From a virus: a stretch of DNA of 34,800 nucleotides. Below are positions 11,118 through 34,800 of this stretch, in pieces (positions within the stretch are counted from its first letter, which is position 1; each line of letters starts with the position of its first letter). The stretch lies in the IMG/VR virus record IMGVR_UViG_3300035666_002029, positions 1-34,800 of that record, one strand, 5' to 3'. The translations under genes were made by a program, and so were the position numbers. The notes under the pieces were generated by a model, which was not told the DNA's origin, searched no databases, and saw only the letters and a list, made by a program, of their open reading frames with translations.

Positions 11118-11128
11118 TTATATTTAAG

Positions 11129-11138: not shown

Positions 11139-11148
11139 AATTCAAGTT

Positions 11149-11400: not shown

Positions 11401-11405
11401 AAATC

Positions 11406-11711
11406 ATGAAACAAAAATCAAAAATCATACCGAAAAACGGTTACGTTGTGTTAAAGCCAATAGAGCTCACAGAAGAGGCTTATGGAAACATCATTATACC
11501 AAACCTCGGTCAAGAGCGTCCTGAGATGGGTGAAGTTGTTGCGATATCTGAACAATACAACTATCACACTGGAACTTACATAGATTCTACGTTTGACATC
11601 GGAGATGTAGCGTTGATTCCCAAATTAGGATCTCAACGCATAGTGATAGATGGAGAAGATTATTTTATGACCAAAGAATCAGAAATTTTAGGAACAATAA
11701 TAAAAGAATAA
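11406..11711 (+). CDS. groES: Co-chaperonin GroES
   Basis: A 101-residue GroES-type co-chaperonin that should cap the GroEL-like ring encoded next. It has the typical beta-barrel order: IIPKNGYVVLKPIE at the start, a mobile-loop region (EEAYGNIIIPNLGQERPEMGEVVAI), GDVALIPK, and the C-terminal DGEDYFMTKESEILGTI matching the family ending. The mobile loop has the hydrophobic IIIP needed to contact GroEL. T4 gp31 is a phage analogue, but this protein is closer to normal bacterial GroES. It begins 5 nt after the previous stop, and groEL follows 7 nt later, so it is part of a chaperone operon. Confidence 0.92.
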   Translation: MKQKSKIIPKNGYVVLKPIELTEEAYGNIIIPNLGQERPEMGEVVAISEQYNYHTGTYIDSTFDIGDVALIPKLGSQRIVIDGEDYFMTKESEILGTIIKE

Positions 11712-11718
11712 TAATAGC

Positions 11719-13335
11719 ATGAGTAAAACACAATTTGTAATTGGACAAGAGCTTAAAGAAAAATTATCATTAGGTATAGATAAGCTAAATACTGCTGTAT
11801 CTTCTACGTTGGGACCTGGCGGTAGAACGGTAATAATAAAAGAACAGAGTGGAGAAATAAAAGCTACTAAAGACGGAGTAACTGTAGCCAAAAGCTTCGG
11901 AGAATTGGAAGATCCAATTGAAACTATTGGAGCAACTTTAGTGAAGCAAGTTTCTATAAAATCTGCAAACGAAGCAGGAGACGGAACTACGACTTCTACG
12001 CTGTTAGCTACCGAAATGATTAAAGAGGGATTAAAACACATTCGTCAAGGCACTAACGCTGTCGCCATAAAAAACGAAATAAATAATGTCTCAGCGTTAG
12101 TTCTTGAAATAATCAAACGCAACGCTATAGATATCTCTACGCAAGATCAAATTAGACAAGTCGCCACAATATCTGGTAACAACGATTCCGAAGTTGGAGA
12201 ATTAATATCTTCCGCTTTAGAGAAAGTTGGTAGAGAGGGCGTAGTAACTATCGAAGAATCGAAGACAGGAGAAACAAGTTTGGAAATAGTGGAAGGCGTG
12301 CAATTCGACAGAGGCTATAAATCTCCGTACTTCGTTACAAACAATACGACTATGCAAGCAGCGTTGGAAGATCCTTATATCTTATTCTACGACGGTAGAA
12401 TATCCACTGCTCAAGAGATGGTGGAAGTGTTGACAAAAGTTAACGCAGAGAATAAACCTCTACTTGTAATCGCAGAAGATTTTGGAGACGAAGCAATTGC
12501 TACGCTTATCGTTAACAAGATGCGCGGCATAGTTCAAGTTTGTGCTGTAAAAGCTCCAGATTTTGGAGATAGAAAAACTCTTTTGTTAGAAGATATGGCA
12601 GTTATCACCGGAGGTGTAGTAATGTCTAAAGACAAGGGACACAAGCTTGATAAGATTTCAAGATCCGAAATTTCTAAATATTTGGGTAGAGCTAGAATGG
12701 TCACAGTATCCAAAGAAGAAACGACAATAGTTGACGGAAAGGGATCTGAAGAATCGATCGAAATGAGGATAGAAGAAATCAAAACTCAAATTGATAAAGC
12801 TAGCTCTTTCTACGAAAAAGAAAAGTTACAAGAAAGGTTAGGTAAACTTGTAGGTGGGGTTGCAATAATAAGTGTCGGAGGAAACTCAGAGATAGAAATT
12901 AAAGAAAAGAAAGACAGAGTAGAAGACGCGCTGTTCGCAACTAAAGCCGCGCTTTCGGATGGTATCGTACCTGGAGGAGGAACGACTTTACTAAACGCAG
13001 CGAGAGAATTGGAAGATACGACAGATCCTAATCGTTCTATAGCCCAATCCATAGTTAAAAAAGCTTTGGAAGCTCCGTTCAAAAAAATATTGTCCAACTC
13101 AGGAGTTGAAAATTGGTGGGATCGAGTACCAGCAAGCGGTCAAGTGTACGATGCAAAAAATCACGAAATCGTAGACGCTTTCGAATCAGGAATAATAGAT
13201 CCAGCTAAAGTGGTAATAACTGCTCTAAAGAACGCGGTATCTGTTGCAGGCACAGTATTGACTACAGAAAGCGTAGTTTTCGAAAAGAAAGACAAAGAAG
13301 AAAAACAACAAGACCCAATGATGGGAATGTATTAA
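11719..13335 (+). CDS. groEL: Chaperonin GroEL (Hsp60)
   Basis: A 538-residue, full-length group I chaperonin. Key elements are intact: TLGPGGR (30-36), KDGVTVAK (51-58) and GDGTTT (87-92) of the nucleotide site, with the hydrolysis Asp in [10 protein letters not shown] of the second equatorial part, and [12 protein letters not shown]. The usual apical hydrophobic substrate-binding region is present, and the C-terminus ends DPMMGMY instead of a long GGM repeat. It probably folds phage proteins, such as the major capsid protein, with the neighbouring GroES; that role is inferred from T4, which supplies only a GroES analogue. Codon use matches neighbours, so the gene is long resident. No CIRCE or other heat-shock operator is visible. 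Confidence 0.96.
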
Positions 13336-14053: not shown

Positions 14054-14065
14054 ACGTATAATATG
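14049..14065 (+). repeat. 17-bp direct repeat at a start site, copy 2
   Basis: Identical to 13848-13864, and again ending in an ATG (14063). It overlaps the end of the preceding gene (stop 14051-14053), so the shared sequence is partly coding there. Confidence 0.6.
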
Positions 14066-15037
14066 AAAATAGGATTAATTAGTATGTTAGCAAACGTAGG
14101 AACTACTTTAAATTCTCAAGGAGGTGGTTACGGAATCATACAAACAAGAATGTTAAGAGACAATCACCCAACTGACGATGTCGTAGTAAATCCTAGTCCA
14201 AAAGACTGGAAGTATTTCGATATATTGTACATTTGCGAAGGAGTAAATTTTGTAGAGGGATCATTCAATATTCCCGGCGGACCTCAAGAGATACACTACG
14301 AAAAGATGAGAGCTATAGCCGATTTCAAAGGAGAATTAAGATATTCCAATCGTGTTTTTGATTTTAATCAATTTAATAAAAGATTAAAAATAGATGCCAC
14401 TTTTCCAGAAGCAAAATATATTAGATGGTATAACACACTATTAGCTCATGCCTTACAAAGCAGGAAGGCGGTTATAGGTGATTCTCATGCTTTATCTGTG
14501 TGGAAACCTGGGTATTCTTTAGATTTTACTGCTGGTAGAACTTTACATGGATTTCTAAAAAGAAATACGCCTGAAGCGATTACTGCTAATTCTCCTTGGC
14601 AACCCGTATTGAACGAAATATACGATGAAGTTATTTTGTATTTTGGCAATATAGATTTACGTTTTCATCTGATGAGACAAGATAATCCTAAACAAGCGAC
14701 GATAGATCTATTTACACGATACGTAGAGTTTGCAAAACAATTTAAAAACGCTACTTTAGTGAATTTACTTCCTGTAGAGCACGAATCGAGAAAGATTCCC
14801 GGCACTGGACTTTATAAAAAGCAACCATTTTTTGGAACAAGGGGAGAGAGAATGGAAATTAGAGAAGTCGCAAACAAGATTATGAATGAATCGGGACTTA
14901 AAACTATTCAATGGCCCGAGGAATGGATAGACGAAGACGGAACTAAAATGTTAGATATACTTGAGCAAAAAAGTTCTGTTCATCTACGTCCAAAAAATTA
15001 TCCATACTTAAACGAAATACTAAATGTTTCTAAATAA
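14063..15037 (+). CDS. SGNH/GDSL-hydrolase-like phage protein
   Basis: A 324-residue protein with an N-terminal region of unknown type (1-110) and a likely SGNH-like core. GDSHA (139-143) would provide the nucleophile Ser141, GNIDLRFH (195-202) resembles the GxND block, and SVHLRPKNY (305-313) could supply the catalytic His. The usual catalytic Asp two or three residues before the His is not obvious. The family usually hydrolyses esters or acts as an acyl/acetyl esterase. In phages such proteins may modify a metabolite or surface sugar. It overlaps the next gene (PLP-like) by 14 nt, so the two products probably act together. Exact substrate not recognisable. AT-rich patches inside contrast with its ends. 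Confidence 0.6.
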   Translation: MKIGLISMLANVGTTLNSQGGGYGIIQTRMLRDNHPTDDVVVNPSPKDWKYFDILYICEGVNFVEGSFNIPGGPQEIHYEKMRAIADFKGELRYSNRVFDFNQFNKRLKIDATFPEAKYIRWYNTLLAHALQSRKAVIGDSHALSVWKPGYSLDFTAGRTLHGFLKRNTPEAITANSPWQPVLNEIYDEVILYFGNIDLRFHLMRQDNPKQATIDLFTRYVEFAKQFKNATLVNLLPVEHESRKIPGTGLYKKQPFFGTRGERMEIREVANKIMNESGLKTIQWPEEWIDEDGTKMLDILEQKSSVHLRPKNYPYLNEILNVSK

Positions 15038-15911
15038 AGCAACAGATCAATCGAATTTGGATCTATCAGAAGGTAAAGACTTGAATTATTACCTAGAAAT
15101 GACCAAAGATTATAAGTTTAACTTTACATTTTCAATTAAACAAATAGATGGATTTAACGTAGTTGATGACGGAGACTTTCAGTTTGGTACCAAAGCCAAA
15201 ATGGCAGACTTTATGATAAGTCAAATTAAAGAAGACTCTATGGTTTACGTTGCTCCGAGAACCGGTTATGCTCCATACTCTTTGTGTTATCTTGCAAAGA
15301 AGTACAATAAAAAATTGTATTTGGTAATACCAGCGTCTAAGGATGCCTCTGAGCATCAACTATCTGCTATAGAAAACGGAGGAATTCCTCTATTCGTAAA
15401 AATACCTGCGATGCCAACAGCTAATATTTGGGCAAAACAATTCGCTGAAAGGGTAGGAGCAAAGTATCTTCCGTTTGGACTGAAGCACGAATCGGTTGTT
15501 GCTGGTGGTGTTAGAATATTTTATGAGACCTTTAAAAACTTAGGTATAGATACGATGTGGACTGTGTTTTCCACAGGAGTATTATCGAGAACTTTACAGA
15601 TAGCTATACCAAACGCTGAGTTTAATGCTGTCGCTGTTGCAAGAAACGTTCAGCAAGGCGAATTGGGTCGTGCAAAATTTTATTCTTACGACAGACCGTT
15701 TTTGAAACCCGCTAGGGTTAATACACCGTTCGATTGCATATCGACTTACGATGCTAAGGGTTGGGAAATGCTTAAAAAATACGGTAAACAAGGAGACTGG
15801 TTTTGGAACGTGGCACCCAATATGCCGAAGCCAACTATTAAAGCTAAAGACATAAATTCTAGTAGGGAGTGGGGAGACTTCACAGATTTTGAAAAACACT
15901 ACAAAGATTGA
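15024..15911 (+). CDS. Fold-type II PLP-dependent enzyme-like protein
   Basis: A 295-residue protein resembling ACC deaminase / D-cysteine desulfhydrase / tryptophan synthase beta enzymes. FGTKAKMADF (54-63) matches the Schiff-base Lys segment (usual GGNKxRKLE), with candidate Lys57. A Rossmann-like part follows (YVAPRTGYAPYSLCYLAKKY, LYLVIPAS). FSTGVLSRTLQIA (about 182-194) could be the phosphate-binding loop. It lacks the full SxN after the Lys region that many relatives use, so its reaction cannot be predicted. The 14-nt overlap with the SGNH-like gene suggests a two-step pathway. Possible roles are amino-acid or base modification. Confidence 0.6.
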   Translation: MFLNKATDQSNLDLSEGKDLNYYLEMTKDYKFNFTFSIKQIDGFNVVDDGDFQFGTKAKMADFMISQIKEDSMVYVAPRTGYAPYSLCYLAKKYNKKLYLVIPASKDASEHQLSAIENGGIPLFVKIPAMPTANIWAKQFAERVGAKYLPFGLKHESVVAGGVRIFYETFKNLGIDTMWTVFSTGVLSRTLQIAIPNAEFNAVAVARNVQQGELGRAKFYSYDRPFLKPARVNTPFDCISTYDAKGWEMLKKYGKQGDWFWNVAPNMPKPTIKAKDINSSREWGDFTDFEKHYKD

Positions 15912-21947: not shown

Positions 21948-23393
21948 ATGAAATTAGGTTACATACCAAAAGATCAAAGAAAAAAAATATTGTTACTGTG
22001 CGACGATATCAGAATGCATAGTGGAATAGCGACCATGGCGAGAGAGATCGTTATAGGTACTGCTCATCACTACAATTGGGTAAATTTAGCCGGAGCGATA
22101 CAACACCCAGATCAAGGAAAAAAATTCGATATCTGCGAAGACACAAATCAAACCGCAGGAATCACCGACTCGAGCGTTTATCTGTATCCCATAAACGGTT
22201 ATGGTACCGCAGAGGCAATTAGACAGCTGATGGAAATAGAAAAACCGGACGCAATAATGCTGTTCACGGATCCGAGGTATTTCACTTGGTTTTTTCAAAT
22301 CGAGATGGAGGTAAGAAAGAGAATACCTGTACTTTATCTAAATATATGGGACGATTTTCCCGCGCCGATATACAATAAACCGTTTTACGAGTCTTGCGAT
22401 TGTTTAATGAGTATATCTAAACAAACCAAGCTAATAAACGAATTGGTTTTGGGTAAAGAACTCATTAAGGATAAAGTGTTGTCTTATGTACCTCACGGAA
22501 TCAACAACAAACTAATATATCCAGTCAACGAATTCATGAAAGAGGAAAACAAAGATATCATTGAATACAGAAAGAGCATATTTGGAGACTTCGACCCAGA
22601 GTTCGTGCTTTTGTACAACGCAAGAAACATAAGAAGAAAATCTCCCGGAGATTTGATAGCTGCTTGGTCTCACTTCTGTGATGTAATAGGAAAAGATAAA
22701 GCAAGCAAGTGTGCGCTACTGATGCACACGCAAGTGGTAGACGAAAACGGTACTGATTTGCGAGTGGTTAAAGATCTATTGTGCGATCCAGAATATCAAA
22801 AAGTGTATTTTTCAGAAAATAGACTCGCAGGTCCTCAAATGAACATACTGTACAATTCGGTAGACGCAGTAGCACTAATTTCTTCCAACGAGGGTTGGGG
22901 ACTTTCTTTAACAGAGGGTTTAATGGCTGGAAAAATGATTACAGCCACAGTGACTGGAGGAATGCAAGATCAAATGAGGTTCGAAGACGAAGAAGGTAAT
23001 TGGTACACTCCGTCAGAAGAGTTACCATCAAATCACTACAGTACGTTAAAGAATCACGGAGAATGGGCAGTACCTGTGTTTCCTAGCAACCTTAGCTTGG
23101 TTGGATCTGTGCCAACTCCGTACATATTCGACGATCGTCCAGACTTCAGAGACATCGCCAAAACCATTCAGTATATATATCAATTAGGCCCAGAGGAAAG
23201 GAAGCGCAGGGGAGAACTTGGGCGCAAATGGGTGAATTCAGAAGAGTCTATGATGACAGCTGAAAATATGTCTAAGAACGTAATAGAATCCATAGACAAA
23301 ACATTTGAAATATTCAAACCGAGAAAGAACTTCGAACTATTAAAAGTTGTTAAACAACCTCGTAAAAAAATATTGCACAAATTAGTATATTAA
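21948..23393 (+). CDS. GT4-type glycosyltransferase
   Basis: A 481-residue GT-B enzyme. The N-terminal half has ILLLCDDIRMHSGIATMAREI, with the Gly-rich acceptor-domain turn. The C-terminal half has LYNARNIRRKSPGDLIAAW and the GT4 signature EGWGLSLTEGLMAG, the E-x7-E element that binds the nucleotide-sugar. Retaining enzymes of this family move hexoses onto sugars, lipids or proteins, and some phage relatives act on DNA bases. Substrate unknown here. It lies after the ribbon-helix-helix gene and before a second GT4 gene, with a 19-nt gap. Codon use fits the phage core, unlike the cassette at 26.7-32.7 kb. Confidence 0.88.
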   Translation: MKLGYIPKDQRKKILLLCDDIRMHSGIATMAREIVIGTAHHYNWVNLAGAIQHPDQGKKFDICEDTNQTAGITDSSVYLYPINGYGTAEAIRQLMEIEKPDAIMLFTDPRYFTWFFQIEMEVRKRIPVLYLNIWDDFPAPIYNKPFYESCDCLMSISKQTKLINELVLGKELIKDKVLSYVPHGINNKLIYPVNEFMKEENKDIIEYRKSIFGDFDPEFVLLYNARNIRRKSPGDLIAAWSHFCDVIGKDKASKCALLMHTQVVDENGTDLRVVKDLLCDPEYQKVYFSENRLAGPQMNILYNSVDAVALISSNEGWGLSLTEGLMAGKMITATVTGGMQDQMRFEDEEGNWYTPSEELPSNHYSTLKNHGEWAVPVFPSNLSLVGSVPTPYIFDDRPDFRDIAKTIQYIYQLGPEERKRRGELGRKWVNSEESMMTAENMSKNVIESIDKTFEIFKPRKNFELLKVVKQPRKKILHKLVY

Positions 23394-23412
23394 TAAAAAT
23401 AAAATAGAGATT

Positions 23413-24729
23413 ATGAACAAACCGTATTGCGTAGTATCGTGTCCCATAGACTGTTATAGTGGATACTCAGCGCGAAGTAGGGATTTTTACAAAGCACTAT
23501 ACGAACTCAAAGGAAAAGAGTGGGAAATACAAGTAATACCACAGAGGTGGGGCAATACGCCTTGGGGATACATAGAAGATAACAATGAAGAGTGGGGATG
23601 GGTAGTACCCACGATGAATAAGTCGGGACAACTACACAAACAGCCTGATGTATGGATTCAAATCACTGTTCCAAATGAGTTTCAACCTATAGGAAAATAC
23701 AACATAGGCGTAACTGCTGGTATAGAGACTACGCTGTGCGATCCGTCTTGGTTAGAAGGTTGTAATAGAATGGATTTAACTCTAGTGTCTTCCAATCATT
23801 CTAAACAAGTCATGCAAAATAGTAAGTTCGATCAACATGATCAACAAACACGTGCTTTCGTACAAAAGATAGAATTAAAAAAACCAATAGACGTATTATT
23901 CGAAGGATTTGATCCCGTTAAGTACTTTTATAAATCAGATGAAGATATAGAATCTTCTGATCTTGTAGACGAATTGGATAACATTTCAGAAGATTTTTGT
24001 TTTTTATTCGTTGGTCACTGGTTACCTGGAGATATGGGAGAAGATCGTAAAAACGTAGGATTAACTATAAAGACTTTCTTAGAAACGTTCAAAGACAAAA
24101 AGTTTAAGAATAAACCTGCTCTAATACTTAAGGCCTCGACCGGAGTACCTGGTATACTTGATAGAGACGAAATGATAAATAGAATAGATAGAATTATGTC
24201 AGAAGTTCATGGTAAAGATTTACCAAACATATATGTCCTAAATGGAGATGTTAAAGACGAAGACATGAACGACCTGTACAATCATTCAAAAGTAAAAGCT
24301 ATGCTTAGCTTCACGAAAGGAGAAGGATTTGGCCGACCACTATTGGAATTTACTCAAGCTAGAAAGCCGATCGCAGCATCTTATTGGTCTGGCCACACTG
24401 ATTTCCTTGATTCGGAATTTGTGTATCCTGTAATAGGAGGATTAAAGAATATTCACCCGTCTGCAGTCATGCAAAACATGTTAATACCAGAAAGCGCATG
24501 GTTTACGCCAAACAATTCTAGCATGGTTCACGCGATGTCTAGCATATACAACAATTACGATGTGTTTAAAGAGAAAGCAAAGAGGCAAGCTTGGAAGTGT
24601 TCCAACGAATTCTCGTTTAACAACATGAAAGATTTGTTATCAAAGTACTTAGACAGAGTACCCAAACAAGTTCAAATACAATTACCCAAATTCGCCACAT
24701 TACCAAAATTAAAAAAGATAGAAAAATGA
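23413..24729 (+). CDS. GT4-type glycosyltransferase, second copy
   Basis: A 438-residue GT-B-like enzyme. It begins CVVSCPIDCYSGYSARSRDFYKAL, has the middle VLFEGFDPVKYF linker, a FCFLFVGHWLPGDMGEDRKN donor-domain start, and the signature KGEGFGRPLLEFTQA (Glu-x7-Glu) with AGIETT and LVSSNHSKQVM in the acceptor half. It resembles GT4 enzymes but is not close to the first copy in detail, so the two may use different acceptors. It overlaps the next zinc-binding gene by 4 nt. Confidence 0.85.
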   Translation: MNKPYCVVSCPIDCYSGYSARSRDFYKALYELKGKEWEIQVIPQRWGNTPWGYIEDNNEEWGWVVPTMNKSGQLHKQPDVWIQITVPNEFQPIGKYNIGVTAGIETTLCDPSWLEGCNRMDLTLVSSNHSKQVMQNSKFDQHDQQTRAFVQKIELKKPIDVLFEGFDPVKYFYKSDEDIESSDLVDELDNISEDFCFLFVGHWLPGDMGEDRKNVGLTIKTFLETFKDKKFKNKPALILKASTGVPGILDRDEMINRIDRIMSEVHGKDLPNIYVLNGDVKDEDMNDLYNHSKVKAMLSFTKGEGFGRPLLEFTQARKPIAASYWSGHTDFLDSEFVYPVIGGLKNIHPSAVMQNMLIPESAWFTPNNSSMVHAMSSIYNNYDVFKEKAKRQAWKCSNEFSFNNMKDLLSKYLDRVPKQVQIQLPKFATLPKLKKIEK

Positions 24730-25172
24730 TCAATGATAGTTTAGGCACTTGTCCAAAATGCAAAGCAAAAGAATCTTGTTACGTGACAGAGATAGAAAAA
24801 GGAAAGTTCGCTTATAGTTGTATGAATTGCGGATTCGCAACAAACGATTACATGAAGTCTGGAGAATACGACACAGAGTTGTACGAAGCAGAACTTCCTG
24901 AGTTGTACAAAGACATAAAATACGTAGACGAAGAAGGTAGAGTTTGGTATCCTTTAGCTGTTAACATAGAAAGCTTAGGCACCGTCTTCGTGTCAGGAAA
25001 AACAATTGACGATTGGTCTTGGAACGCTATAAAATCCGTGGAACTCGCAGAAGAAGACAAATCTAAGAAATTTTTTAAAGACAAAAAATACAAATCAGAT
25101 CCAACTACAATGAAGGATTTTGGTAGAGACGGATTTTTTGAAGCTTGCGATTACATAAAATTATACGATTAA
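24726..25172 (+). CDS. Zinc-ribbon-containing phage protein
   Basis: A 148-residue protein. The N-terminus has CPKC (9-12) and CMNC (32-35), forming a zinc ribbon about 25 residues long; Cys18 lies between. The rest is an acidic, aromatic-rich domain (LPELYKDIKYVDEEGRVWYPLAVNIESLGTVFVSGKTIDDWSWNAIKSVELAEEDKSK) ending in KDFGRDGFFEACDYIKLYD. I recall the ribbon plus RVWYPLAVN pattern as a conserved but uncharacterised phage protein. Placed among glycosyltransferases, overlapping the previous gene by 4 nt (ATGA). Confidence 0.65.
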   Translation: MINDSLGTCPKCKAKESCYVTEIEKGKFAYSCMNCGFATNDYMKSGEYDTELYEAELPELYKDIKYVDEEGRVWYPLAVNIESLGTVFVSGKTIDDWSWNAIKSVELAEEDKSKKFFKDKKYKSDPTTMKDFGRDGFFEACDYIKLYD

Positions 25173-25184
25173 AAACAAAATAAA

Positions 25185-25355
25185 ATGAAAATAACAATAA
25201 AATCAACCAACGAGGTAAAAGAAACGAAAACCAAAGAAGTTAAAGAGTATTTTGGAAAACCATTAGGTATTATAGAACCTATTGAGTCTTCCAAAACTAA
25301 TAAAGTTAAAAAAGAATATTTTGCTGCGCCTCTAGGAATTAAAAAAATTAAATAA
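25185..25355 (+). CDS. Small Lys-rich protein with internal repeat
   Basis: A 56-residue frame from ATG 25185 to TAA 25353-25355. It holds a repeated unit: KEYFGKPLGI (20-29) and KEYFAAPLGI (43-52), separated by 13 residues. The rest is Lys, Thr and Glu, so the protein is probably basic and flexible, with the two units as short binding motifs. No known family. It follows the zinc-ribbon gene by 12 nt and precedes a GT2 gene by 2 nt. Confidence 0.55.
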   Translation: MKITIKSTNEVKETKTKEVKEYFGKPLGIIEPIESSKTNKVKKEYFAAPLGIKKIK

Positions 25356-25357
25356 TT

Positions 25358-25981
25358 ATGCCGAGTATATCATTCGCAATATCTGCACACAACGAACACG
25401 AAGAGCTTGATAGACTACTTAAAGTTTTAATAGATTATGTAGACCAAGACGACGAAATTGTAGTGCAGTTGGATACAACTGCTACAAAACAAGTTAAAGA
25501 AGTTTTACAGAATTATACAAATAAAGTAAAAGTTATAGAATTCTCTTTGAACGGAAATTTTGCAAACTTTAAAAACAATTTAAAAAACGCATGTACTAAA
25601 GATTACATATTCAACATAGACGCGGACGAAGTTCCTAGTGAATCGCTTTTATCTTCGCTTAAAGAAGTGTTGTTTAGTAATTTTCACATAGACGTATTTT
25701 TGGTACCAAGAATCAACACAGTAGACGGATTGACAGACGAGCACATACATAGATGGGGATGGAAAGTTGAAGACAATAGAATCAACTTCCCCGATTACCA
25801 ATGGAGAATATGGAAAAATAGATCGGATATAGTTTGGATAAACGAAGTTCACGAGGTGTTGTCAGGTTACAGAATATTCTCAGCTCTTCCTTCTTTAGAC
25901 GAATTTTGTTTATTGCATCACAAGAGCATAAGTAGACAAGAAAAACAAAACGAGTTGTACGATAAAATACAAAGAGGTTGA
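25358..25981 (+). CDS. GT2-type glycosyltransferase
   Basis: A 207-residue GT-A fold enzyme. Its start ISFAISAHNEHEELDRLLKVL is typical of GT2, with the DEIVVQLDT strand. The DxD motif is IDADE (about 88-92), then the WRIWKN region and INEVHEVLSGY, which resembles the lipopolysaccharide-modifying WaaE/KdtX-like branch of GT2. It is shorter than many, and ends soon after HHKSISRQEKQNELYDKI, another shared feature. The end overlaps the next gene by TTGA (TTG start). Confidence 0.88.
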   Translation: MPSISFAISAHNEHEELDRLLKVLIDYVDQDDEIVVQLDTTATKQVKEVLQNYTNKVKVIEFSLNGNFANFKNNLKNACTKDYIFNIDADEVPSESLLSSLKEVLFSNFHIDVFLVPRINTVDGLTDEHIHRWGWKVEDNRINFPDYQWRIWKNRSDIVWINEVHEVLSGYRIFSALPSLDEFCLLHHKSISRQEKQNELYDKIQRG

Positions 25982-26649
25982 GAAGACATTTAGTAATAGC
26001 GGCTTACGACAAGGATTATTCTTGGATAAGACAGATTAGCTCTTCCGTAAAAACGATAGCGTACAGAAAAGGTGCTGCAGCCAAGCAAAGTAAAGACGAG
26101 ATACAACTCGAACCTAATAAGGGTAGATGCGTACACACTTTCTTTAATCACATAGCAGTTAACTACGATAACCTAGCCGATATTACGTTTTTCTGCCAAG
26201 ATTATCCATTCGACCATTTTGAAGATTTGATAGATGTAGTCAATAACTACAAAGAAGCGGAAAGGTGTCAATTGAGGATAGGAGGATATTATGGTTTTCA
26301 CTACAATAGCATAAAAGTACCTGGACCAAGGGGTGGAATTATGTGGAATTTATCCGAATCAAAACATCATGGTAATGGAAGAGTGTTGATATGCGATAAT
26401 TACGGAGCTCCTCAAGATTCTAATCCTCTCATCGATATGAAAAGGTATTGGAATAGATTTTTTAATAGTGAACCTCCAAACAATTACGAATTCATGCCTG
26501 GCGGCCACTTTGCAGTAACTAAAGAACACGCCAAATTGAGATCACAAGAGTATTATTACAATATTTGTAAATTTTTACAAGAAGAAGAAGTAGCTCCATG
26601 GATAATAGAAAGATTGGAGTGTTACATCTTTAATCCCAATATAAAATGA
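25978..26649 (+). CDS. DUF3431 family protein
   Basis: A 223-residue protein matching DUF3431: VIAAYDKDYSWIRQI at the start, then EPNKGRCVHTFFNHIAVNYDNLADITFFCQDYPFDHFEDL, later YEFMPGGHFAVTKEHAKL and APWIIERLECYIF. DUF3431 proteins are known in fungi and some bacteria and viruses, usually near glycosyltransferases; the reaction is not known to me. A sugar-transferase-like fold is a plausible guess. TTG 25978 is used as the start, because no ATG is available and it overlaps the previous stop codon. The 3' end overlaps the next gene by 4 nt. Codons match the upstream core genes, so the AT-rich cassette begins after it. Confidence 0.8.
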   Translation: MRRHLVIAAYDKDYSWIRQISSSVKTIAYRKGAAAKQSKDEIQLEPNKGRCVHTFFNHIAVNYDNLADITFFCQDYPFDHFEDLIDVVNNYKEAERCQLRIGGYYGFHYNSIKVPGPRGGIMWNLSESKHHGNGRVLICDNYGAPQDSNPLIDMKRYWNRFFNSEPPNNYEFMPGGHFAVTKEHAKLRSQEYYYNICKFLQEEEVAPWIIERLECYIFNPNIK

Positions 26650-27935
26650 TAAAATTAGAAAACATACAATCATTAGTAGGAAATCACGTTGCACCTTACA
26701 TATACAACGAAAAGAATTTCGAACCAGGAAAAACACCAATATATTACTCCGGACCTTATTGGGATAATCGGGAGATAGAAGCCGCTATAGATTCTTTTCT
26801 TAATGGTAAATGGATAACTGCGGGAGAAAAAGTACATAAATTTGAACATTCTTTTTCTAAGAAATTTAAGACTAGGCATTCTCACATGGTAAATTCAGGA
26901 TCTTCTGCCAATTTAGTATTGATAGCTGCATTAAAGAGAAGATTTCAGTGGAGTGATGATGATGAAATCATAGTATCTCCAGTAGGATTTGCAACGACTG
27001 TTTCAGTGATTTACCAAAATAGATTAAAACCAGTATTTGTAGATATAGAATGGGATACACTTAATTTTGATGTAAATAATATAGAGTCTAAAATAACAGA
27101 TAAAACAAAAGGCATATTCCTATCGCCTGTTTTAGGTAATCCTCCAGATATGGATAAGTTGATTAGACTTTGTCATAAGTATAATTTAAAATTAATAGGA
27201 GATAATTGTGATAGTCTAGGAAGTAAATGGAATGATAAGTATTTAAATGAATATTATGTAGCATATTCCAATTCATTCTATCCTGCTCACCACATATCTA
27301 CTGGAGAAGGCGGAATGGTTTGTACAGATGACGATGAATTAAAAAAGCTTTTTGTAAGCATTAGTTGGTGGGGTAGGGATTGCTATTGCGTAGGATCTGC
27401 AAATTTATTAGCATGTGGAACTTGTGGAAATAGATTTGATAAGTGGTTAGAAAATTATGATGGGGTGATAGATCATAAGTATGTGTTTAGTGAGATGGGA
27501 TATAATTTAAAACCTCTAGATCTACAAGGAGCAATTGGATTAGTGCAATTAGATAAATTTGATACTATAGACGAAAAGAGAAATAAGTCAAGAGAAGTTA
27601 TATCTAACATATTCTTAGGCAATGTAAAAGGAGTTAGAGTACCTAGCACAATAGCTGGCGCTACACCGTGTTGGTTTGGTACTCCAATAATATGCGAAGA
27701 GGATGGATTAAAGCATAAACTCGTAGCTCATCTAGAGGCTAATAAGATACAAACAAGAAATTACTTCGCAGGAAATATACTAATGCACCCCGGATATTCT
27801 CACTTAGATGATTATAAGAATTATCCTGAAGCAAATAAAGTTTTAGATAAAGTATTCTTTGTAGGCGCTGCTCCTCATTATGGTCAAGAAGTTTTTGATT
27901 ATATAGAATCAGTAGTAAAATCTTTTAAACCATGA
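26646..27935 (+). CDS. RfbH-like CDP-4-keto-6-deoxyglucose-3-dehydrase (DegT/DnrJ/EryC1 family)
   Basis: A 429-residue PMP/PLP-fold enzyme. Its active-site stretch is SFYPAHHISTGEGG (210-223), which matches RfbH/E1, where the usual catalytic Lys is replaced by His (His215-His216). Family members without this Lys perform C3 deoxygenation instead of transamination. Four Cys (246, 248, 257, 260; RDCYC...ACGTCGNRF) correspond to the [2Fe-2S] ligands of RfbH, with a longer gap between the pairs. VNSGSSANL, LIGDNCDSLGS and EMGYNLKPLDLQGAIGL also match. The first ~30 codons look like core codon use and the rest AT-rich, suggesting a junction. Expected role: 3,6-dideoxyhexose synthesis. Overlaps both neighbours by 4 nt. 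Confidence 0.88.
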   Translation: MIKLENIQSLVGNHVAPYIYNEKNFEPGKTPIYYSGPYWDNREIEAAIDSFLNGKWITAGEKVHKFEHSFSKKFKTRHSHMVNSGSSANLVLIAALKRRFQWSDDDEIIVSPVGFATTVSVIYQNRLKPVFVDIEWDTLNFDVNNIESKITDKTKGIFLSPVLGNPPDMDKLIRLCHKYNLKLIGDNCDSLGSKWNDKYLNEYYVAYSNSFYPAHHISTGEGGMVCTDDDELKKLFVSISWWGRDCYCVGSANLLACGTCGNRFDKWLENYDGVIDHKYVFSEMGYNLKPLDLQGAIGLVQLDKFDTIDEKRNKSREVISNIFLGNVKGVRVPSTIAGATPCWFGTPIICEEDGLKHKLVAHLEANKIQTRNYFAGNILMHPGYSHLDDYKNYPEANKVLDKVFFVGAAPHYGQEVFDYIESVVKSFKP

Positions 27936-28750
27936 TAAAAATATTTGGAGGAACAGGATTTGTAGGTTCAGAATTTTATAAAAAATATTCTCATGAATCT
28001 GAAGTTGTTAGTAGAAATCAATTAGAAGTGCCTAATGACTCAACAATACTTTACTTGATAAGTACTGTAGATAACTATAATGTTTTAGAAGATCCTAAAT
28101 TAGATATTAAAACTAATCTATTGCATCTAATCGATGTTTTGGAAGCCAATAAAAATAATAATGTTACATTTCATTTTGTAAGTTCATGGTTCGTATATGG
28201 AGATTGTGAACTTCCAGCAAATGAAAGATCTTCTTGCAGACCAAAAGGATTCTATTCAATTACAAAATTAGCGGCAGAACAATTATTAGAATCTTATTGT
28301 AAGACTTTCAATATAAAGTACACAATAACAAGATTAGCTAATGTTGTAGGCAAAACAGATGGTAAGATTTCAAAAAAGAAGAATGCTCTTCAATATCTAA
28401 TAAGTAAGCTAAAGAATAATGAGCACATAGATCTATATTACGATGGGATATTTTTAAGAGACTTTATACATGTTTCAGATGTAGCAGATGGATTAAGATA
28501 CATTATCGATCATGGTAAGAATGGAGAAATTTATAATCTCGGATCCGGTGCAGCTCCTATTATTTTTAAAGACGTAATAGAATATGCAAAAAAATCATTG
28601 GAATCTACATCGACAATAGGTAGTATGGATCCAACAGAATTTCATAAAATAGTACAAGTCAAGGATATGTACTTAGATACGAGTAAATTAAATAACTTAG
28701 GTTGGAAACCATCCATGACTGTATTTCAAGCTATAAATACGTTACTGTGA
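27932..28750 (+). CDS. NAD-dependent epimerase/reductase (SDR), possible CDP-dideoxyhexose synthase
   Basis: A 272-residue extended SDR. It has the nucleotide-binding GGTGFVGS (6-13), the catalytic Ser region SSWFVYG (84-90), and YSITK (Tyr108, Lys112). The C-terminal sugar-binding part has DFIHVSDVADGLRYI and EIYNLGSG. In Salmonella and Yersinia the gene after rfbH is rfbS/rfbJ (paratose or abequose synthase), which reduces the C4 keto group. Direct coupling with the RfbH-like gene (4-nt overlap) suggests the same step. The cytidylyltransferase (rfbF) and 4,6-dehydratase (rfbG) are not in this window and may be supplied by the host or lie elsewhere. Confidence 0.8.
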   Translation: MIKIFGGTGFVGSEFYKKYSHESEVVSRNQLEVPNDSTILYLISTVDNYNVLEDPKLDIKTNLLHLIDVLEANKNNNVTFHFVSSWFVYGDCELPANERSSCRPKGFYSITKLAAEQLLESYCKTFNIKYTITRLANVVGKTDGKISKKKNALQYLISKLKNNEHIDLYYDGIFLRDFIHVSDVADGLRYIIDHGKNGEIYNLGSGAAPIIFKDVIEYAKKSLESTSTIGSMDPTEFHKIVQVKDMYLDTSKLNNLGWKPSMTVFQAINTLL

Positions 28751-29583
28751 TTACATACAATAAAATAGGGCATTTTGGCCGTCTTGCGAATCAATTATTT
28801 CAATTCGCTTCTACAATAGGCATAGCAAAGAAGATAGGAACTAGTGCTTATTTTCCCATAGAAAATATGTACAATCCAAATGTAGAGCACTTTTTAGATG
28901 GTGTTACTAGGGAAATATATTTCGATATTCCAAAGTACTTTAAAAATGCTAATGAAGTATTATTACCTCTAAAAAATATAAAGTATTCAGCAGAAGTGCA
29001 AGAACCTAATTTTCATTTTTTTGAACAGATGTTTTCAATTCCAGATGGTAGCAATCTGAATGGATACTATCAAACGGAGAAGTATTTTAAACATTGTGAA
29101 GAGTATATTAGATATCTTTTAACTTTCCAAGATTCAATAATAGAAGAAAGTAAAAAGCTTTTTCCAAATGTAGAAAATGAAAAGGTATCTATTCATTTAA
29201 GAGTTGGAGATTATGCAGCTCTTCAACAGTTTCATCCAATAATGGACTCTCATTACTATCAAGCTGCGATGAATTATTTTTGTGATGAAAATTATGAGAC
29301 AGATAAATACTTCTTAGTATTTTCTGACGATATAGACTATGCAAAAAGATTAATAGGCGAAGGAGATTGTATACTCTATATGGAAAATAATCCCACAGAA
29401 ATAGATCTTTGCTTAATGAGTATGTGTGATCATAATATTATTGCAAATAGTTCTTTTAGTTGGTGGGGAGCATGGTTAAATAATAATCCAAATAAGAAAG
29501 TGGTCGCTCCAAAGAAATGGTTTGGACCTGCATATACTCACAATACAAAAGATTTATACCCAGAATCATGGATAATAGAATAA
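28747..29583 (+). CDS. GT11-type glycosyltransferase (alpha-1,2-fucosyltransferase-like)
   Basis: A 278-residue enzyme of the GT11 family. GHFGRLANQLFQFAS at the start, SIHLRVGDYA (the HxRxGDY donor motif) and IIANSSFSWWGAWLN match the family. GTG 28747 is chosen as start because it gives the family start (ITYNKIG) and a GTGA overlap with the previous stop; an ATG at 28702 would add 15 unrelated residues. GT11 enzymes usually transfer fucose to galactose, but donor choice cannot be read here; a dideoxysugar donor made by the previous two genes is possible. The next gene overlaps by 16 nt. Confidence 0.85.
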   Translation: MITYNKIGHFGRLANQLFQFASTIGIAKKIGTSAYFPIENMYNPNVEHFLDGVTREIYFDIPKYFKNANEVLLPLKNIKYSAEVQEPNFHFFEQMFSIPDGSNLNGYYQTEKYFKHCEEYIRYLLTFQDSIIEESKKLFPNVENEKVSIHLRVGDYAALQQFHPIMDSHYYQAAMNYFCDENYETDKYFLVFSDDIDYAKRLIGEGDCILYMENNPTEIDLCLMSMCDHNIIANSSFSWWGAWLNNNPNKKVVAPKKWFGPAYTHNTKDLYPESWIIE

Positions 29584-30950
29584 ACAAATTTTTTAGTGTA
29601 GTAATACCGTGTTGGGAAATAAAAGGGAAAGGCGTAGATTATTTAGAGTGGTCATTCAATATACTTGCAAATCAAACATTTAAAGATTTTGAAGTAGTTA
29701 TATCAGATCATAGTGTAGATGATGAAATAAGAGACTTATGTGATAGATGGTTACCTTATCTTGATATAATATATACAAAGAATTCACACGGTAGAGGAAA
29801 GATCTCTCCTAATCTAAATAATGCTATTAGGCACGCTACTGGTAAATACATTAAGATTTTATTTCAAGATGATTTTCTATATGACCAAGAGTCTCTAGAA
29901 ATTATTTACAAACATATAATAAATAATGCAGAAAAATATTGGTTCGTTAATGCTTGTGTACATACGAAAGATGCAGTAACTTGTTATGACCCTATGTTTC
30001 CCATGTATCACGATAGGATCCACGAAGGTTATAATACAATATCGTGTCCTACTGTACTTACTATTAAGAATGAAAACGTAATGGAATTTGATGAATCTTT
30101 AAATTGGTTAGTAGATGTAGATTACTATAAAAGATTATACATCAATCATGGACTTCCAGTGATAATACAGCATATATGTGCAGTAAATAGGGATTCAGAA
30201 GTAAGAACTACAACTATGATTACAGAGCAAGAAAAAATAGAAGAAGTTAAAAGAGTAATAGAGAGATATAATAATCAAAAATATTTAGACTTATCTAAAG
30301 TAACACTCATAGCCGTCACTTCTGTAAGATTGCAAGAGCACATAAAAGCACTAATGTATAGTTCTAAAAATATAAAATTTGGAGCTATAAAGCTTGTATC
30401 CCATGAAAAACCAGAAAACTTACCTGATAAAATACAGTTCGAGTATATAGAGAAGATGAATAATATAAATGAGTGGAACTACTCTATGATATATAAATTA
30501 GGAAAGTACATAGACACTGAATTTGCTATGGTGATTCATGATGATGGATTTGTAATTAATCCTAGTTCTTGGAAAAATGAATTCTTTGATTATGATTATA
30601 TAGGAGCCCCCTGGCCAATACCACATTCATCTGACAAAGTATCTTATAGAGATATTAATGGAGAATTAATAAGAGTAGGAAATAGCGTATCACTAAGAAG
30701 TAAAAAATTAATAGATCTTCCAAATCAATTAAATTTAGAATGGAAAGCTTTTCATGGATATTATAGTGAAGATGGTTATATAGCAGTAAATTATAGACAC
30801 ATATATAAAGAATATGGTTGTAAATTTGCCGATTTAAATATTGCCAAATATTTCTCTCACGAGACTGAAATTCCTGAAACTATTGGTATAGCCCCTTTCG
30901 CATTTCATGGAAAGAATAGTGTACATAGGCAACTATTAAATACAGTATAA
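29568..30950 (+). CDS. GT2-DUF5672 fusion protein
   Basis: A 460-residue two-part protein. Residues ~8-235 form a GT2-like domain (FFSVVIPCWEIKGKG, SDHSVDDEI, FQDDFLYDQES with QDD as its metal motif, and NWLVDVDYYKRLY). Residues ~255-460 match DUF5672: VTLIAVTSVRLQEHIKALMYS, EFAMVIHDDGFVINPSSW, YDYIGAPWP, EDGYIAVNYRH, and a final PFAFHGK. DUF5672 is often found in glycan loci and has its own DDG motif, so both halves may act on sugars. ATG 29568 is preferred to the upstream ATG 29517, since it begins just before the GT2 fold. Overlaps the GT11 gene by 16 nt. Confidence 0.85.
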   Translation: MDNRINKFFSVVIPCWEIKGKGVDYLEWSFNILANQTFKDFEVVISDHSVDDEIRDLCDRWLPYLDIIYTKNSHGRGKISPNLNNAIRHATGKYIKILFQDDFLYDQESLEIIYKHIINNAEKYWFVNACVHTKDAVTCYDPMFPMYHDRIHEGYNTISCPTVLTIKNENVMEFDESLNWLVDVDYYKRLYINHGLPVIIQHICAVNRDSEVRTTTMITEQEKIEEVKRVIERYNNQKYLDLSKVTLIAVTSVRLQEHIKALMYSSKNIKFGAIKLVSHEKPENLPDKIQFEYIEKMNNINEWNYSMIYKLGKYIDTEFAMVIHDDGFVINPSSWKNEFFDYDYIGAPWPIPHSSDKVSYRDINGELIRVGNSVSLRSKKLIDLPNQLNLEWKAFHGYYSEDGYIAVNYRHIYKEYGCKFADLNIAKYFSHETEIPETIGIAPFAFHGKNSVHRQLLNTV

Positions 30951-30953
30951 AAA

Positions 30954-31847
30954 ATGATAGCCACAGAATTTGTATTTGGCCAAGGATTTGGAAACCAATT
31001 AGCATGCTATGTAACAACGAGAGCAATTGCTAAAAGAAATGGTTATGAATTTGGATATGAAGGACAAGAAAACTTTGGAGATAAGAGATATAATGATCGA
31101 GGTGTATACTTCATGAATATGGATATGGGAATTCCCGTAAGCAGAATAGAAAGAACCTATACAGAAAGAGAAAGAAGAATAAAGTTTACTCATTCCCACC
31201 ACGATTCTACAATAGGTTGTGATGTTAGATTAATAGACAATGATTTAATCAATGTATTAGATAATACAAAGATTATGGGTATCATGCAAGGAGAGGATTA
31301 CTTTTGGGATTATAAAGAAGAAGTTAAAGACTGGTTGAAAGTAAAACCTGAATTTGATTGCATAGACTATAGAGATGATAATATCTGTGTATTAAATATT
31401 AGAGACTATGAAGGAGATCCAACGCTATTCCTACAAAGAGATTATTGGTTAGCTGCTATTACTCATATGAGAAGCATTAATCCAAAAATGAAGTTTGTCG
31501 TTATCACAGAAAATCCAGAAGTTGCAAAGCGACAGTTACCAGAATTAGCAGATAATTGTTATCACTTCGATTTAGCAAAAGATTATTCTATAGTAAAGAA
31601 TGCAAAATGGCTTATATTGTCAAATTCTAGCTTTGCATATTTCCCAGCGTTCTGTAGCGATGCTAACCTTATAATAGCACCAAAGTATTGGGCTAGACAT
31701 AATGTATCTGATGGCTATTGGGCATGTGGTTATAATATATCTAGAAAGTTTACCTACATGGATAGAGCAAGAACACTACAAACATATGACGAAGTAATTA
31801 GAGAATTTGAAATATATAAACAAGAAACCAAAATATATGATATTTGA
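30954..31847 (+). CDS. GT11-like glycosyltransferase, divergent
   Basis: A 297-residue protein sharing the GT11 plan: FGQGFGNQLACYVTTRAIAKRNG at the start, VLNIRDYEGDPTLFLQRDYW in place of the HxRxGDY donor motif, and LILSNSSFAYFPAFCSD near the end. Since the donor motif is changed (NIRDYEG), specificity differs from the first GT11 enzyme, and activity is uncertain. The start ATG follows 3 nt after the previous stop, and the end overlaps the GT17 gene by 11 nt. AT-rich codon use matches the rest of the cassette. Confidence 0.75.
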   Translation: MIATEFVFGQGFGNQLACYVTTRAIAKRNGYEFGYEGQENFGDKRYNDRGVYFMNMDMGIPVSRIERTYTERERRIKFTHSHHDSTIGCDVRLIDNDLINVLDNTKIMGIMQGEDYFWDYKEEVKDWLKVKPEFDCIDYRDDNICVLNIRDYEGDPTLFLQRDYWLAAITHMRSINPKMKFVVITENPEVAKRQLPELADNCYHFDLAKDYSIVKNAKWLILSNSSFAYFPAFCSDANLIIAPKYWARHNVSDGYWACGYNISRKFTYMDRARTLQTYDEVIREFEIYKQETKIYDI

Positions 31848-32694
31848 TGTTTTTACAATGAATAATGAGCTAGATCTTCTAGAGCTTAGATTAGAAATGT
31901 TAGATCCTTACGTTGATATATTTGTAATTGTAGAATGTGTTAGCACATTCTCAAGAAAACCAAAACCTCTACACTTTGAAGAGAATATGATAAGATATAA
32001 AAAGTATTTGCATAAGATACATCATCATGTGACTAGATTTCCTCCCGAGTCTTACGAAGATCTTCAATCAAGAATAGAAAATCCACAAACTACAGATTTA
32101 GAGAGACATATTTGTATGCAAGCGTTAACAAGTACTAATGTTCCTCCTGGAGAACTTCATTGGTTAAATGAATTTTATCAAAAAGAATTTATAAGAAAAG
32201 CATTACTAGATGCAGATGCTTCTGCTCAAGATATTATTATGGTAGGAGATTTAGATGAAATCTGGAATCCTGAATATGATTATAATTTTATAGATGATGT
32301 TAGCATATATAAACTTAAACAACTTGTCTATTCTGGATATATGAACGTTAGATCTAATGAAGAATGGGCAGGTACACTTGTTACTCGATATAAGAATATA
32401 AAAAATGCATGTCTTAATCATTTAAGAACAGCTTCAAAAACCAACTATGTTTATATAGATAATGCAGGTTGGCATTTTACTTTTATGGGCGGCCCAGAAC
32501 AGATTAAACACAAAATTCAATCTTATGGTCACCAAGAATTTAATAATGAATCTGTAATTAATAATGTTGAGAATTTATTAAAAAATAATCAAGACGTACT
32601 TGGAAGAAATAATTTTACTTTTTGGCAAGATGATGTAAATTTACCACAGTATGTGTTAGATAACAAAGAAAAATACAAACAATTTTTTAAATGA
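31837..32694 (+). CDS. GT17-type glycosyltransferase
   Basis: A 285-residue protein of the GT17 family (known from eukaryotic beta-1,4-mannosyl-glycoprotein GlcNAc transferase and many bacteria). MIFDVFTMNNELDLLELRLEML, VDIFVIVECVSTFSRKPKPLHFEEN, and the metal motif VGDLDEIWNP are seen, with the late GWHFTFMGGPEQIKHKIQSYGHQEF. ATG 31837 gives the family's typical start and overlaps the previous gene by 11 nt; a TTG at 31807 would extend it by 10 unrelated residues. Last gene of the AT-rich cassette; it overlaps the next GT2 gene by 4 nt. Confidence 0.85.
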   Translation: MIFDVFTMNNELDLLELRLEMLDPYVDIFVIVECVSTFSRKPKPLHFEENMIRYKKYLHKIHHHVTRFPPESYEDLQSRIENPQTTDLERHICMQALTSTNVPPGELHWLNEFYQKEFIRKALLDADASAQDIIMVGDLDEIWNPEYDYNFIDDVSIYKLKQLVYSGYMNVRSNEEWAGTLVTRYKNIKNACLNHLRTASKTNYVYIDNAGWHFTFMGGPEQIKHKIQSYGHQEFNNESVINNVENLLKNNQDVLGRNNFTFWQDDVNLPQYVLDNKEKYKQFFK

Positions 32695-33845
32695 TAAGCT
32701 ACTGTATTCCGTCTAAGAATAATCTTCGCTATTTAATACCCTGTATAAAATCGATAAGAGAGAATTCTCACTACGATAACGAAGTAATAGTTTTTGTGGA
32801 TCAAGACAACGACGGTACCGAATCTTGGTTAATAGAAAATAACATTAAATACTTTGTCAACCAATCAGGAGCTCCATTGGGCATAGGACACGCTTACGAT
32901 ACTATGTTTAAGCAAGCAAGATTCGATAAAGTTGTAGCTTTCCACGCTGACATGATATTAGGTAAAGACGCTGATCTAAACATGATCAAACACCACTCAA
33001 TAGGTAAAGTAGTTTGTTCAACTAGAATAGAGCCACCGCTACATCCGCACGGACCAGAAAAGATGACAATGGATTTCGGTCTATGGCCAGAAGAAATTAA
33101 GTGGAAAGAATTCGATGCTTACGTTAAACACTATTCGAACTTAAACTTCGGGGTGACAACAAAGTCCATGTTCGCACCGTGGTTGATCGATCGCAGGAAT
33201 CACTTGGGTCACGATCCCTTGTTCTTATCAGTTTACGAAGATGCAGATCTATTTAGAAGGTTTGTGCTTGCTGGATACGAACTTGTGCAGTCTTGGGATA
33301 GTTTGGTATATCACTTAACTTGCAGAGGCGGCCAGTTTAGCGGCGCAACGAAGATGGAAGACTTCAAAAAGAAAGACGAAAACTGGTTGAGAAATAACCA
33401 AATATCTATGTTGGAATACGTGAGGAAGTGGGGAGGAATGTTTAAAGAGTACGGACCTTGCGAACCAAGACCAAATATAAAATATGACATAGGATTAAAG
33501 GTAACCAATGCTAGACACATACCAGAGATTTTGGGTTACGAACCTTATTTCAATTCGATGCAAGTCGACATCGATACACAGAAATATATCGAAAGCGCGC
33601 AACTTAATTCTAAGTTTGATATAAAAGCTAAATTCGTAGAAGAATTAACCAATGACATTATTGTGGAGTTGGACTGTTCTTCTAAGACCCAATTAGAGTC
33701 TTTTGATTATGCGATTCAAAACATAGAGGATTTACTAAGTTCGACAGAACCCAACGAGACTTATCAATTAGCCAACGACGGAATTTTATTAACAATAAAA
33801 GTAAAAGATAAAATTCCTCAAAACATAAAAATAGATTTATGGTAA
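32691..33845 (+). CDS. GT2-type glycosyltransferase with extra C-terminal domain
   Basis: A 384-residue protein. Residues ~1-235 are a GT2-like domain (SYCIPSKNNLRYLIPCIKSI, VDQDNDGTESWL, FHADMILG as its DxD-equivalent HADM, and EDADLFRRF). A further ~120-residue part (KYDIGLKVTNARHIPEILGYEPYFNSMQVDID, ending IKVKDKIPQNIKIDLW) has no known fold to me. The next gene is clearly a paralogue (shared EPPLHP-G-EK-MDFG, MFAPW and YHLTCRG). Codon use returns to the core pattern within the first 30 bases. Overlaps its neighbours by 4 and 7 nt. Confidence 0.85.
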   Translation: MISYCIPSKNNLRYLIPCIKSIRENSHYDNEVIVFVDQDNDGTESWLIENNIKYFVNQSGAPLGIGHAYDTMFKQARFDKVVAFHADMILGKDADLNMIKHHSIGKVVCSTRIEPPLHPHGPEKMTMDFGLWPEEIKWKEFDAYVKHYSNLNFGVTTKSMFAPWLIDRRNHLGHDPLFLSVYEDADLFRRFVLAGYELVQSWDSLVYHLTCRGGQFSGATKMEDFKKKDENWLRNNQISMLEYVRKWGGMFKEYGPCEPRPNIKYDIGLKVTNARHIPEILGYEPYFNSMQVDIDTQKYIESAQLNSKFDIKAKFVEELTNDIIVELDCSSKTQLESFDYAIQNIEDLLSSTEPNETYQLANDGILLTIKVKDKIPQNIKIDLW

Positions 33846-34800
33846 CATTCGTAATACCCTCGCACAACAATTTAAGACACTTAAAAAACCTATACGATTC
33901 CATAAAGACAAATGCTCCAAATGCAAAACTCGTATTTTTAGACGATGCGTCAACTGATGGAACTTATGAATGGCTAAAAGAGATTTCAGCAAAAGACGAA
34001 AACGTATACGAGCCCTATAGAACAGAACAAAGGGTTGGTCATACAGTGTTGTACGATGTGGGAATTTCCATATCAAAAGAAGACATAGTGGGAATCCTTC
34101 ATGCTGACATGATCGTCGGTCCGAATTATATGGAAAACTTATTAAAACACTTAAAACCAAAAACAGTTGTGTGTGGAACTAGAGTTGAACCACCTCTCCA
34201 TCCACCAGGCCAAGAGAAGATTATCATGGATTTTGGTATGGACTTTGACGACTTGAATGTCGATTCGTTCTACAAGTATGCTACGCAAGCCCAAACTCAA
34301 TACGAAAATCAAATCACTTACGGAATGTTCGCTCCGTGGATAATCTACAAAGAAGATTTCGCTTCTATGGGAGGACACGATGCTTTGTTTTCTCCGTTTC
34401 CTTACGAAGATTCAGATATATTCCAAAGGTGGATGTTAAGTGGTTATAGGTTAATACAATCTAGAGACGCTTTTGTTTACCACTTAACTTGCAGAGGCCA
34501 TAGATTTGTAGAAAAGGTTGGTAAAGATGACGATTACTTCGTGGCAGCAAACCAACGATCTATGAGAAATTATTTAAGAAAGTGGGGATCTTGGATACAG
34601 AACGATGAGTATCACCACCCCATTTTAACCCCTCGATACGAAATAGGCATAGTGATTAAAAATTGTAATCAAGATGACTTATACGCGCTAGAACCAAGAT
34701 TCGATGCGGTTAGAGTAGATATGGATTATTCGTATTACATTGCAGAAGACGGAGAGCAGGGAGAAACTCCTTACGATTTGTCAGAGAAGATTAAACAAAT
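33839..34800 (+). CDS. GT2-type glycosyltransferase, partial (runs off the window)
   Basis: From ATG 33839 to the window end, 320 codons are open with no stop, so the gene is cut by the edge. The N-terminus is FVIPSHNNLRHLKNLYDSI, then FLDDASTDGTYEWL, the metal motif HADMIVG, the shared EPPLHPPGQEK, the MFAPWI segment, EDSDIFQRW and YHLTCRGH. It is a tandem paralogue of the gene before it, also with a C-terminal region resembling RYEIGIVIKN...RVDMDY. Gene duplication followed by divergence probably supplied two acceptor or donor specificities. Overlap with the previous gene is 7 nt. Confidence 0.88.
   Translation, partial: MVTFVIPSHNNLRHLKNLYDSIKTNAPNAKLVFLDDASTDGTYEWLKEISAKDENVYEPYRTEQRVGHTVLYDVGISISKEDIVGILHADMIVGPNYMENLLKHLKPKTVVCGTRVEPPLHPPGQEKIIMDFGMDFDDLNVDSFYKYATQAQTQYENQITYGMFAPWIIYKEDFASMGGHDALFSPFPYEDSDIFQRWMLSGYRLIQSRDAFVYHLTCRGHRFVEKVGKDDDYFVAANQRSMRNYLRKWGSWIQNDEYHHPILTPRYEIGIVIKNCNQDDLYALEPRFDAVRVDMDYSYYIAEDGEQGETPYDLSEKIKQ

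Follow-up and report, generated by a model that had tools for sequence, protein, structure and literature searches.

The 3,6-dideoxyhexoses are rare sugars that form the immunodominant tips of some enterobacterial O-antigens. E1 (AscC/DdhC/RfbH), the CDP-6-deoxy-L-threo-D-glycero-4-hexulose-3-dehydrase of Yersinia pseudotuberculosis (PDB 3bcx, 3bb8), requires a second [2Fe-2S] protein, the flavoprotein E3. Two other 3-dehydratases act on sugars attached to other nucleotides. ColD, the GDP-4-keto-6-deoxymannose 3-dehydratase (PDB 2gms, 3b8x), follows a hydrolytic mechanism and has no [2Fe-2S] cluster (PMC8987622), while SpnQ, the dTDP-4-keto-2,6-dideoxyglucose 3-dehydratase of the spinosyn pathway, is an Fe-S enzyme that works with general reductases of the ferredoxin/flavodoxin type (PMC8987622). 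Regarding viruses, auxiliary-gene lists from marine viral metagenomes name ascC/ddhC/rfbH (PMC10653327); in the part of that paper considered here, these names belong to a bulk annotation, without analysis of branch, context or reductase.

The window studied here, i.e., the whole stretch of 34,800 nucleotides, is a complete 34.8-kb virus record (IMGVR_UViG_3300035666_002029). It encodes an E1-like protein of 429 aa, followed by a short-chain dehydrogenase/reductase (SDR) of 272 aa, and both open reading frames were verified at the positions given in Table 1. The two genes share an ATGA, which agrees with the 4-nt overlap between dehydrase and reductase reported in the preliminary description. 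Around them lies a glycosylation island, which codes for GT1, GT2, GT11, GT17, DUF3431 and DUF5672 proteins and extends past the end of the record. The window has an order of genes in common with the Flavobacterium phage vB_FspM_immuto (MW353175), namely DNA polymerase, GroES/EL, nuclease and glycosyltransferases, the corresponding proteins being mostly 35–60% identical (DNA polymerase: 52%; GroEL: 53%; glycosyltransferases: 48–60%), and this synteny makes a Bacteroidota host likely. In place of the RfbH-SDR pair of the window, immuto carries a DegT transaminase annotated as WecE, so that the sugar-modifying gene of the island appears to be exchangeable. Outside of the island, the window features a phage chaperone set (10665–13335), with Hsp20, GroES and GroEL clustered downstream of the DNA polymerase, two neighbouring proteins of ~300 aa without any Pfam match (14063–15911), of which the first is found in PHROGs 13881 and 17781 (function unknown), and an HNH endonuclease frame adjoining the replication genes (298–1161), probably a homing endonuclease.

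Table 1. Features of the dehydratase-reductase module and its surroundings (positions in the window).
Feature	Positions	Strand	Evidence
E1/RfbH-like PMP-dependent [2Fe-2S] nucleotide-sugar 3-dehydratase	26646..27935	+	PF01041, NF011936, PDB, model, tree
H215 codon, equivalent in the alignment to the catalytic His220 in E1 (Lys in aminotransferases)	27288..27290	+	E1 alignment, conservation, model
Codon of C188, predicted first [2Fe-2S] ligand	27207..27209	+	Invariant in 85/85 viral and 29/29 bacterial members
C246-Y-C248, predicted second and third [2Fe-2S] ligands	27381..27389	+	Invariant Cys
Codon of C260, predicted fourth [2Fe-2S] ligand	27423..27425	+	Invariant; X11 after C248
Extended SDR, predicted NDP-4-keto-3,6-dideoxyhexose C4 reductase	27932..28750	+	PF01370, triad, fold, linkage
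DUF3431 protein, candidate glycosyltransferase	25978..26649	+	PF11913 4.1e-13; 4-nt overlap with RfbH
GT11 glycosyltransferase (fucosyltransferase family), which may use the product	28702..29583	+	PF01531 1.2e-22
Glycosylation island enclosing the module	21948..34800	+	Pfam matches; start syntenic with Flavobacterium phage immuto

Compared to Pfam, the 429-aa protein is a member of the DegT/DnrJ/EryC1/StrS family (PF01041, 1.6e-71). Its best curated model is RfbH (NF011936, 1.3e-109), at a score of 366.8 bits that lies below the cut-off of 423 for strict NCBIfam membership. The closest PDB relative by sequence is Yersinia E1 (3bcx/3bb8, 2e-73), and the second is ColD; likewise, the AlphaFold2 model has 3bcx as its top PDB match (TM 0.84) and ColD as the next one, the Cys loop (residues 242–280) being of low confidence in this model. 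In the motif SFYPAHHISTGEGG, the catalytic position is the first His of the pair (H215), which aligns with the catalytic His220 of E1 (the residue mutated in 3bb8), whereas C193, C251, C253 and C261 of E1 correspond to C188, C246, C248 and C260; C257, an extra Cys close by, is not kept in bacterial relatives. H215 and the four Cys are invariant in the 85 viral and the 29 bacterial members of the branch described below (114/114), which excludes chance and confirms both the Lys-to-His change and the four Cys of a [2Fe-2S] motif that had been read from the sequence in the preliminary description. The latter was also right that the Cys spacing is unlike that of Salmonella-type RfbH: all 114 members have C-X57-C-X-C-X11-C, with the last two Cys set apart by X11, against 57 (or 61)/1/7 in all 82 classical RfbH proteins. 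Moreover, 18 further positions distinguish the two. The classical set includes one protein from a Salmonella-derived contig (OR851175, “Salmonella phage S.Kent 1-2-1”), on which classical rfbG-rfbH (L107:1-2570) probably represent host DNA and not phage. To sum up the comparison with E1, the phage dehydratase shares its DegT fold, catalytic His, four aligned Cys and X57 and X1 spacings, but differs by X11 (X7 in E1) before the last Cys and by its separate branch, with about 35–43% identity to classical RfbH. With ColD, it has in common the His-for-Lys 3-dehydratase type, but not the absence of Fe-S cysteines, of which it keeps all four. A second DegT protein with a catalytic His (SFFVAHHMST) and without the Fe-S cysteines C246/C248 was seen in the huge-phage record LR756502 (L084:4422-5591), where this ColD-like protein is located ~6 kb from the E1-like copy of that phage.

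A tree of 89 sequences groups the viral and most bacterial members in one fully supported branch, while the classical RfbH proteins make up the other branch and three Nitrospirota proteins a group of their own. The Lys-type DegT proteins, represented by few rows with long branches, are far off, and the dehydratase falls outside of them. Identity as a catalytic-Lys aminotransferase is therefore ruled out by H215, the four Cys and the tree, and we regard the 429-aa protein, by sequence, fold and phylogeny, as firmly established as an E1/RfbH-type 3-dehydratase with a predicted [2Fe-2S] cluster. When 395 Bacteroidota, 369 Bdellovibrionota and 386 cyanobacterial genomes were surveyed, a sharp identity gap appeared: proteins 56–63% identical to the query occur in one, six and one of these genomes, respectively, and classical RfbH proteins, at no more than 43% identity, in many of them. 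Together, the tree and the gap bear out the distinct branch at which the preliminary description had hinted. In IMG/VR, one scan yielded 521 related stretches, and relatives are also carried by the cultured cyanophages S-B05, S-B43 and S-H68. Judging by these sequences, the branch is widespread in viruses and bacteria, and separate from the textbook enzyme of Salmonella and Yersinia. Several other contigs deserve mention. SDR-RfbH pairs of the present branch are found on Prochlorococcus single-cell contigs (L096:5138-7360, L102:3635-5751). A Woesearchaeota-labelled contig (L105:6979-10417) encodes RfbH, in one long frame, and an RmlD-like reductase that shares 51% identity with its viral counterpart, with replication-like genes around, and looks viral. 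In a Bacteroidia MAG (L089:3982-8971), an RfbH of the branch adjoins a ThDP acetolactate-synthase-like protein and an SDR-glycosyltransferase fusion, a gene set recalling the synthesis of branched-chain (yersiniose-type) sugars.

The 272-aa protein is an extended SDR (PF01370, 1.1e-33), with the glycine motif GGTGFVG and the triad S84, Y108, K112, which is invariant among 35 homologues, and its AlphaFold2 model (pLDDT 92) has the fold of the GalE/RMD/RmlB-type SDRs. It is thus plausible as an NDP-sugar C4 keto-reductase, a function predicted from sequence. The preliminary description had likened it to paratose/abequose-type SDRs: the enzyme class stands, with its triad intact, but its sequence does not justify naming it an abequose or paratose synthase, the best matches being generic GalE/RMD/RmlB-type SDRs. 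Two kinds of reductase gene are found behind viral rfbH, namely the present SDR (40 loci), which comes directly after RfbH in about half of the loci of viruses, and a short protein of RmlD-like type (35 loci). Bacteria have the opposite arrangement, with the SDR immediately before RfbH. Beside classical RfbH, the SDR family is absent (0/79 loci). The neighbouring genes differ between the two kinds of viral loci, since DUF3431 directly precedes RfbH in 32/40 SDR-type loci vs. 0/35 RmlD-like-type loci, and GT11 occurs at most four genes downstream in 27/40 vs. 4/35. On the best viral tree, the reductase type switches five times, but only one independent pair is located on supported branches, so that the association of DUF3431 and GT11 with the SDR may be due to shared ancestry.

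To decide which nucleotide carries the sugar, we considered the gene context in bacterial genomes and in 35 virus records, of which 34 have the branch and the last is that of immuto; several of these records exceed 100 kb, and virus records are often fragments. A 4,6-dehydratase gene next to the RfbH-SDR pair, where there is one, is mostly rmlB (dTDP). RmlB, SDR and RfbH are consecutive in Marine virus AG-345-D19, RmlB is close to the SDR in cyanophages S-B05/S-H68, SDR-RfbH is flanked by rmlB-rmlA in three Bdellovibrionota genomes, and rmlB is upstream of RfbH in Nostocales HT-58-2. A clear RmlB (at least 259 bits) was detected in 8/35 virus records. Among 14 control genomes, RmlB is over its cut-off in ten and RfbG in one, which indicates that hosts usually supply the dTDP precursor. 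On the whole, dTDP (rmlA/rmlB) agrees better with the gene context than CDP does. Nevertheless, rmlA and rmlB are common in polysaccharide loci, which makes their adjacency weak evidence, and three of these contexts come from a single phylum. With GMD in nine virus records, about the same as RmlB, and rfbF at 9–18 kb from the module in two bacterial genomes, dTDP is thus the best reading, not the sole one.

The preliminary description had assigned the pair to a CDP-3,6-dideoxyhexose (abequose/paratose-type) pathway. In this case, rfbF and rfbG would have to come from the host or from phage sequence that has not been seen. The CDP-specific E1 is indeed the closest characterised relative, RfbH is the best NCBIfam model, and in two bacterial genomes the missing genes are on the contig of the module (rfbF and rfbG ~18 kb away in G036; rfbF ~9 kb away in G038). 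However, the dehydratase scores under the RfbH cut-off, and rfbG, which lies within ~1.5 kb of classical RfbH in 54/79 loci, adjoins RfbH in no locus of the branch, with none near its bacterial members in the examined flanks (up to ~9 kb). Neither rfbF nor rfbG was found in a search of the window, as had been noted before, nor over cut-off in any of the 35 virus records, and RfbG reaches its cut-off in the single control genome mentioned above. Given that neither is over cut-off in the related virus records and that rfbG is absent beside the bacterial members, and the window being the whole record, these two genes are unlikely to reside elsewhere in the phage genome, and we consider a CDP pathway unlikely.

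A GDP sugar seems quite unlikely to us. Here, the substrate would be GDP-4-keto-6-deoxymannose and the product a colitose-like GDP-3,6-dideoxyhexose, to be transferred by the GT11 protein. GMD, present in 9/35 virus records, is mostly beside GDP-fucose synthase; GT11, a family including fucosyltransferases and colitosyltransferases, comes after the SDR in 27/40 loci; and the top fold match of the SDR is a structure with bound GDP-L-fucose, RMD (GDP-4-keto-6-deoxymannose reductase) ranking close behind. Yet GMD and Fcl together already account for GDP-fucose for fucosyltransferases, while most virus records have no GMD and the inspected bacterial neighbourhoods of SDR-RfbH showed none. Moreover, the known GDP enzyme, ColD, is devoid of the Fe-S cluster, whereas the phage dehydratase retains the cluster cysteines. 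Finally, that the dehydratase would mainly be an aminotransferase acting on a host NDP-4-keto-6-deoxy sugar, its Fe-S residues being a relic, is very improbable, for even if SpnQ transaminates without reductase, no electron partner is encoded and a WecE-annotated transaminase sits at the same locus in the related phage immuto, H215 in place of Lys and the four Cys are invariant in viruses and bacteria, the linked reductase is conserved, as expected for a keto product, and E1 and ColD showed no transamination in the SpnQ-type test (PMC8987622).

On balance, we favour the dTDP reading, in which a two-gene graft would turn host dTDP-4-keto-6-deoxyglucose into a dTDP-3,6-dideoxyhexose via host electron carriers. 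The E1-like dehydratase would form a Schiff base between PMP and the NDP-4-keto-6-deoxyhexose, H215 would promote elimination of the hydroxyl at C3, and the enzyme's own [2Fe-2S] cluster would mediate reduction of the unsaturated intermediate. The window has no Fer2/E3-like (RfbI/AscD) protein, and neither rfbF, rfbG nor E3 neighbours the dehydratase, unlike E1. Because a dedicated E3 reductase is not encoded, electrons would be supplied by the ferredoxin or flavodoxin of the host, similar to what has been reported for SpnQ; among the virus records, Fer2 domains are confined to two cyanophage records, which makes the manner of SpnQ, with host carriers, more likely. With NAD(P)H, the SDR would then reduce C4 to give the NDP-3,6-dideoxyhexose, which the glycosyltransferases of the island (GT11 as the first candidate) may transfer to a phage or host glycan; no signs of DNA glycosylation were found in the window. 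The most likely substrate is dTDP-4-keto-6-deoxyglucose, and as this is the rhamnose precursor of the host, two phage genes would suffice. Compared by description, SpnQ would resemble the phage enzyme in its dTDP substrate (if our reading holds), its Fe-S cluster and its use of general reductases, but it belongs to an antibiotic pathway and acts on a 2-deoxy sugar. Our results document sequence, fold, conserved residues, linkage and contrasts in gene context, while Fe-S binding, chemistry, electron source, C4 stereochemistry and acceptor are inferred, and so too is the nucleotide, dTDP, for which GDP and CDP are live rivals.

More tentatively, the proposal may extend to the branch as a whole: a virus-rich group of [2Fe-2S] 3-dehydratases would use dTDP-4-keto-6-deoxyglucose and be combined by phages with one of two interchangeable C4 reductases, yielding two different 3,6-dideoxyhexoses for phage-controlled glycans. 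In the open-access literature searched, most subscription papers lying outside of it, phage rfbH/ddhC came up in bulk gene lists only, and we found no description of the branch, of the reductase switch or of the separation from CDP genes. If the proposal is true, dTDP-4-keto-6-deoxyglucose would be a substrate class beyond those of E1 (CDP), ColD (GDP) and SpnQ (dTDP-4-keto-2,6-dideoxy), and the rfbH/ddhC labels given by annotation pipelines would assign the wrong nucleotide. It would also offer a clear handle on the products of phage glycosylation islands and might open a new way of making dTDP-3,6-dideoxy sugars enzymatically. With hundreds of phages, a host rhamnose precursor and only two genes involved, 3,6-dideoxyhexoses would then be far commoner than the CDP pathway implies.
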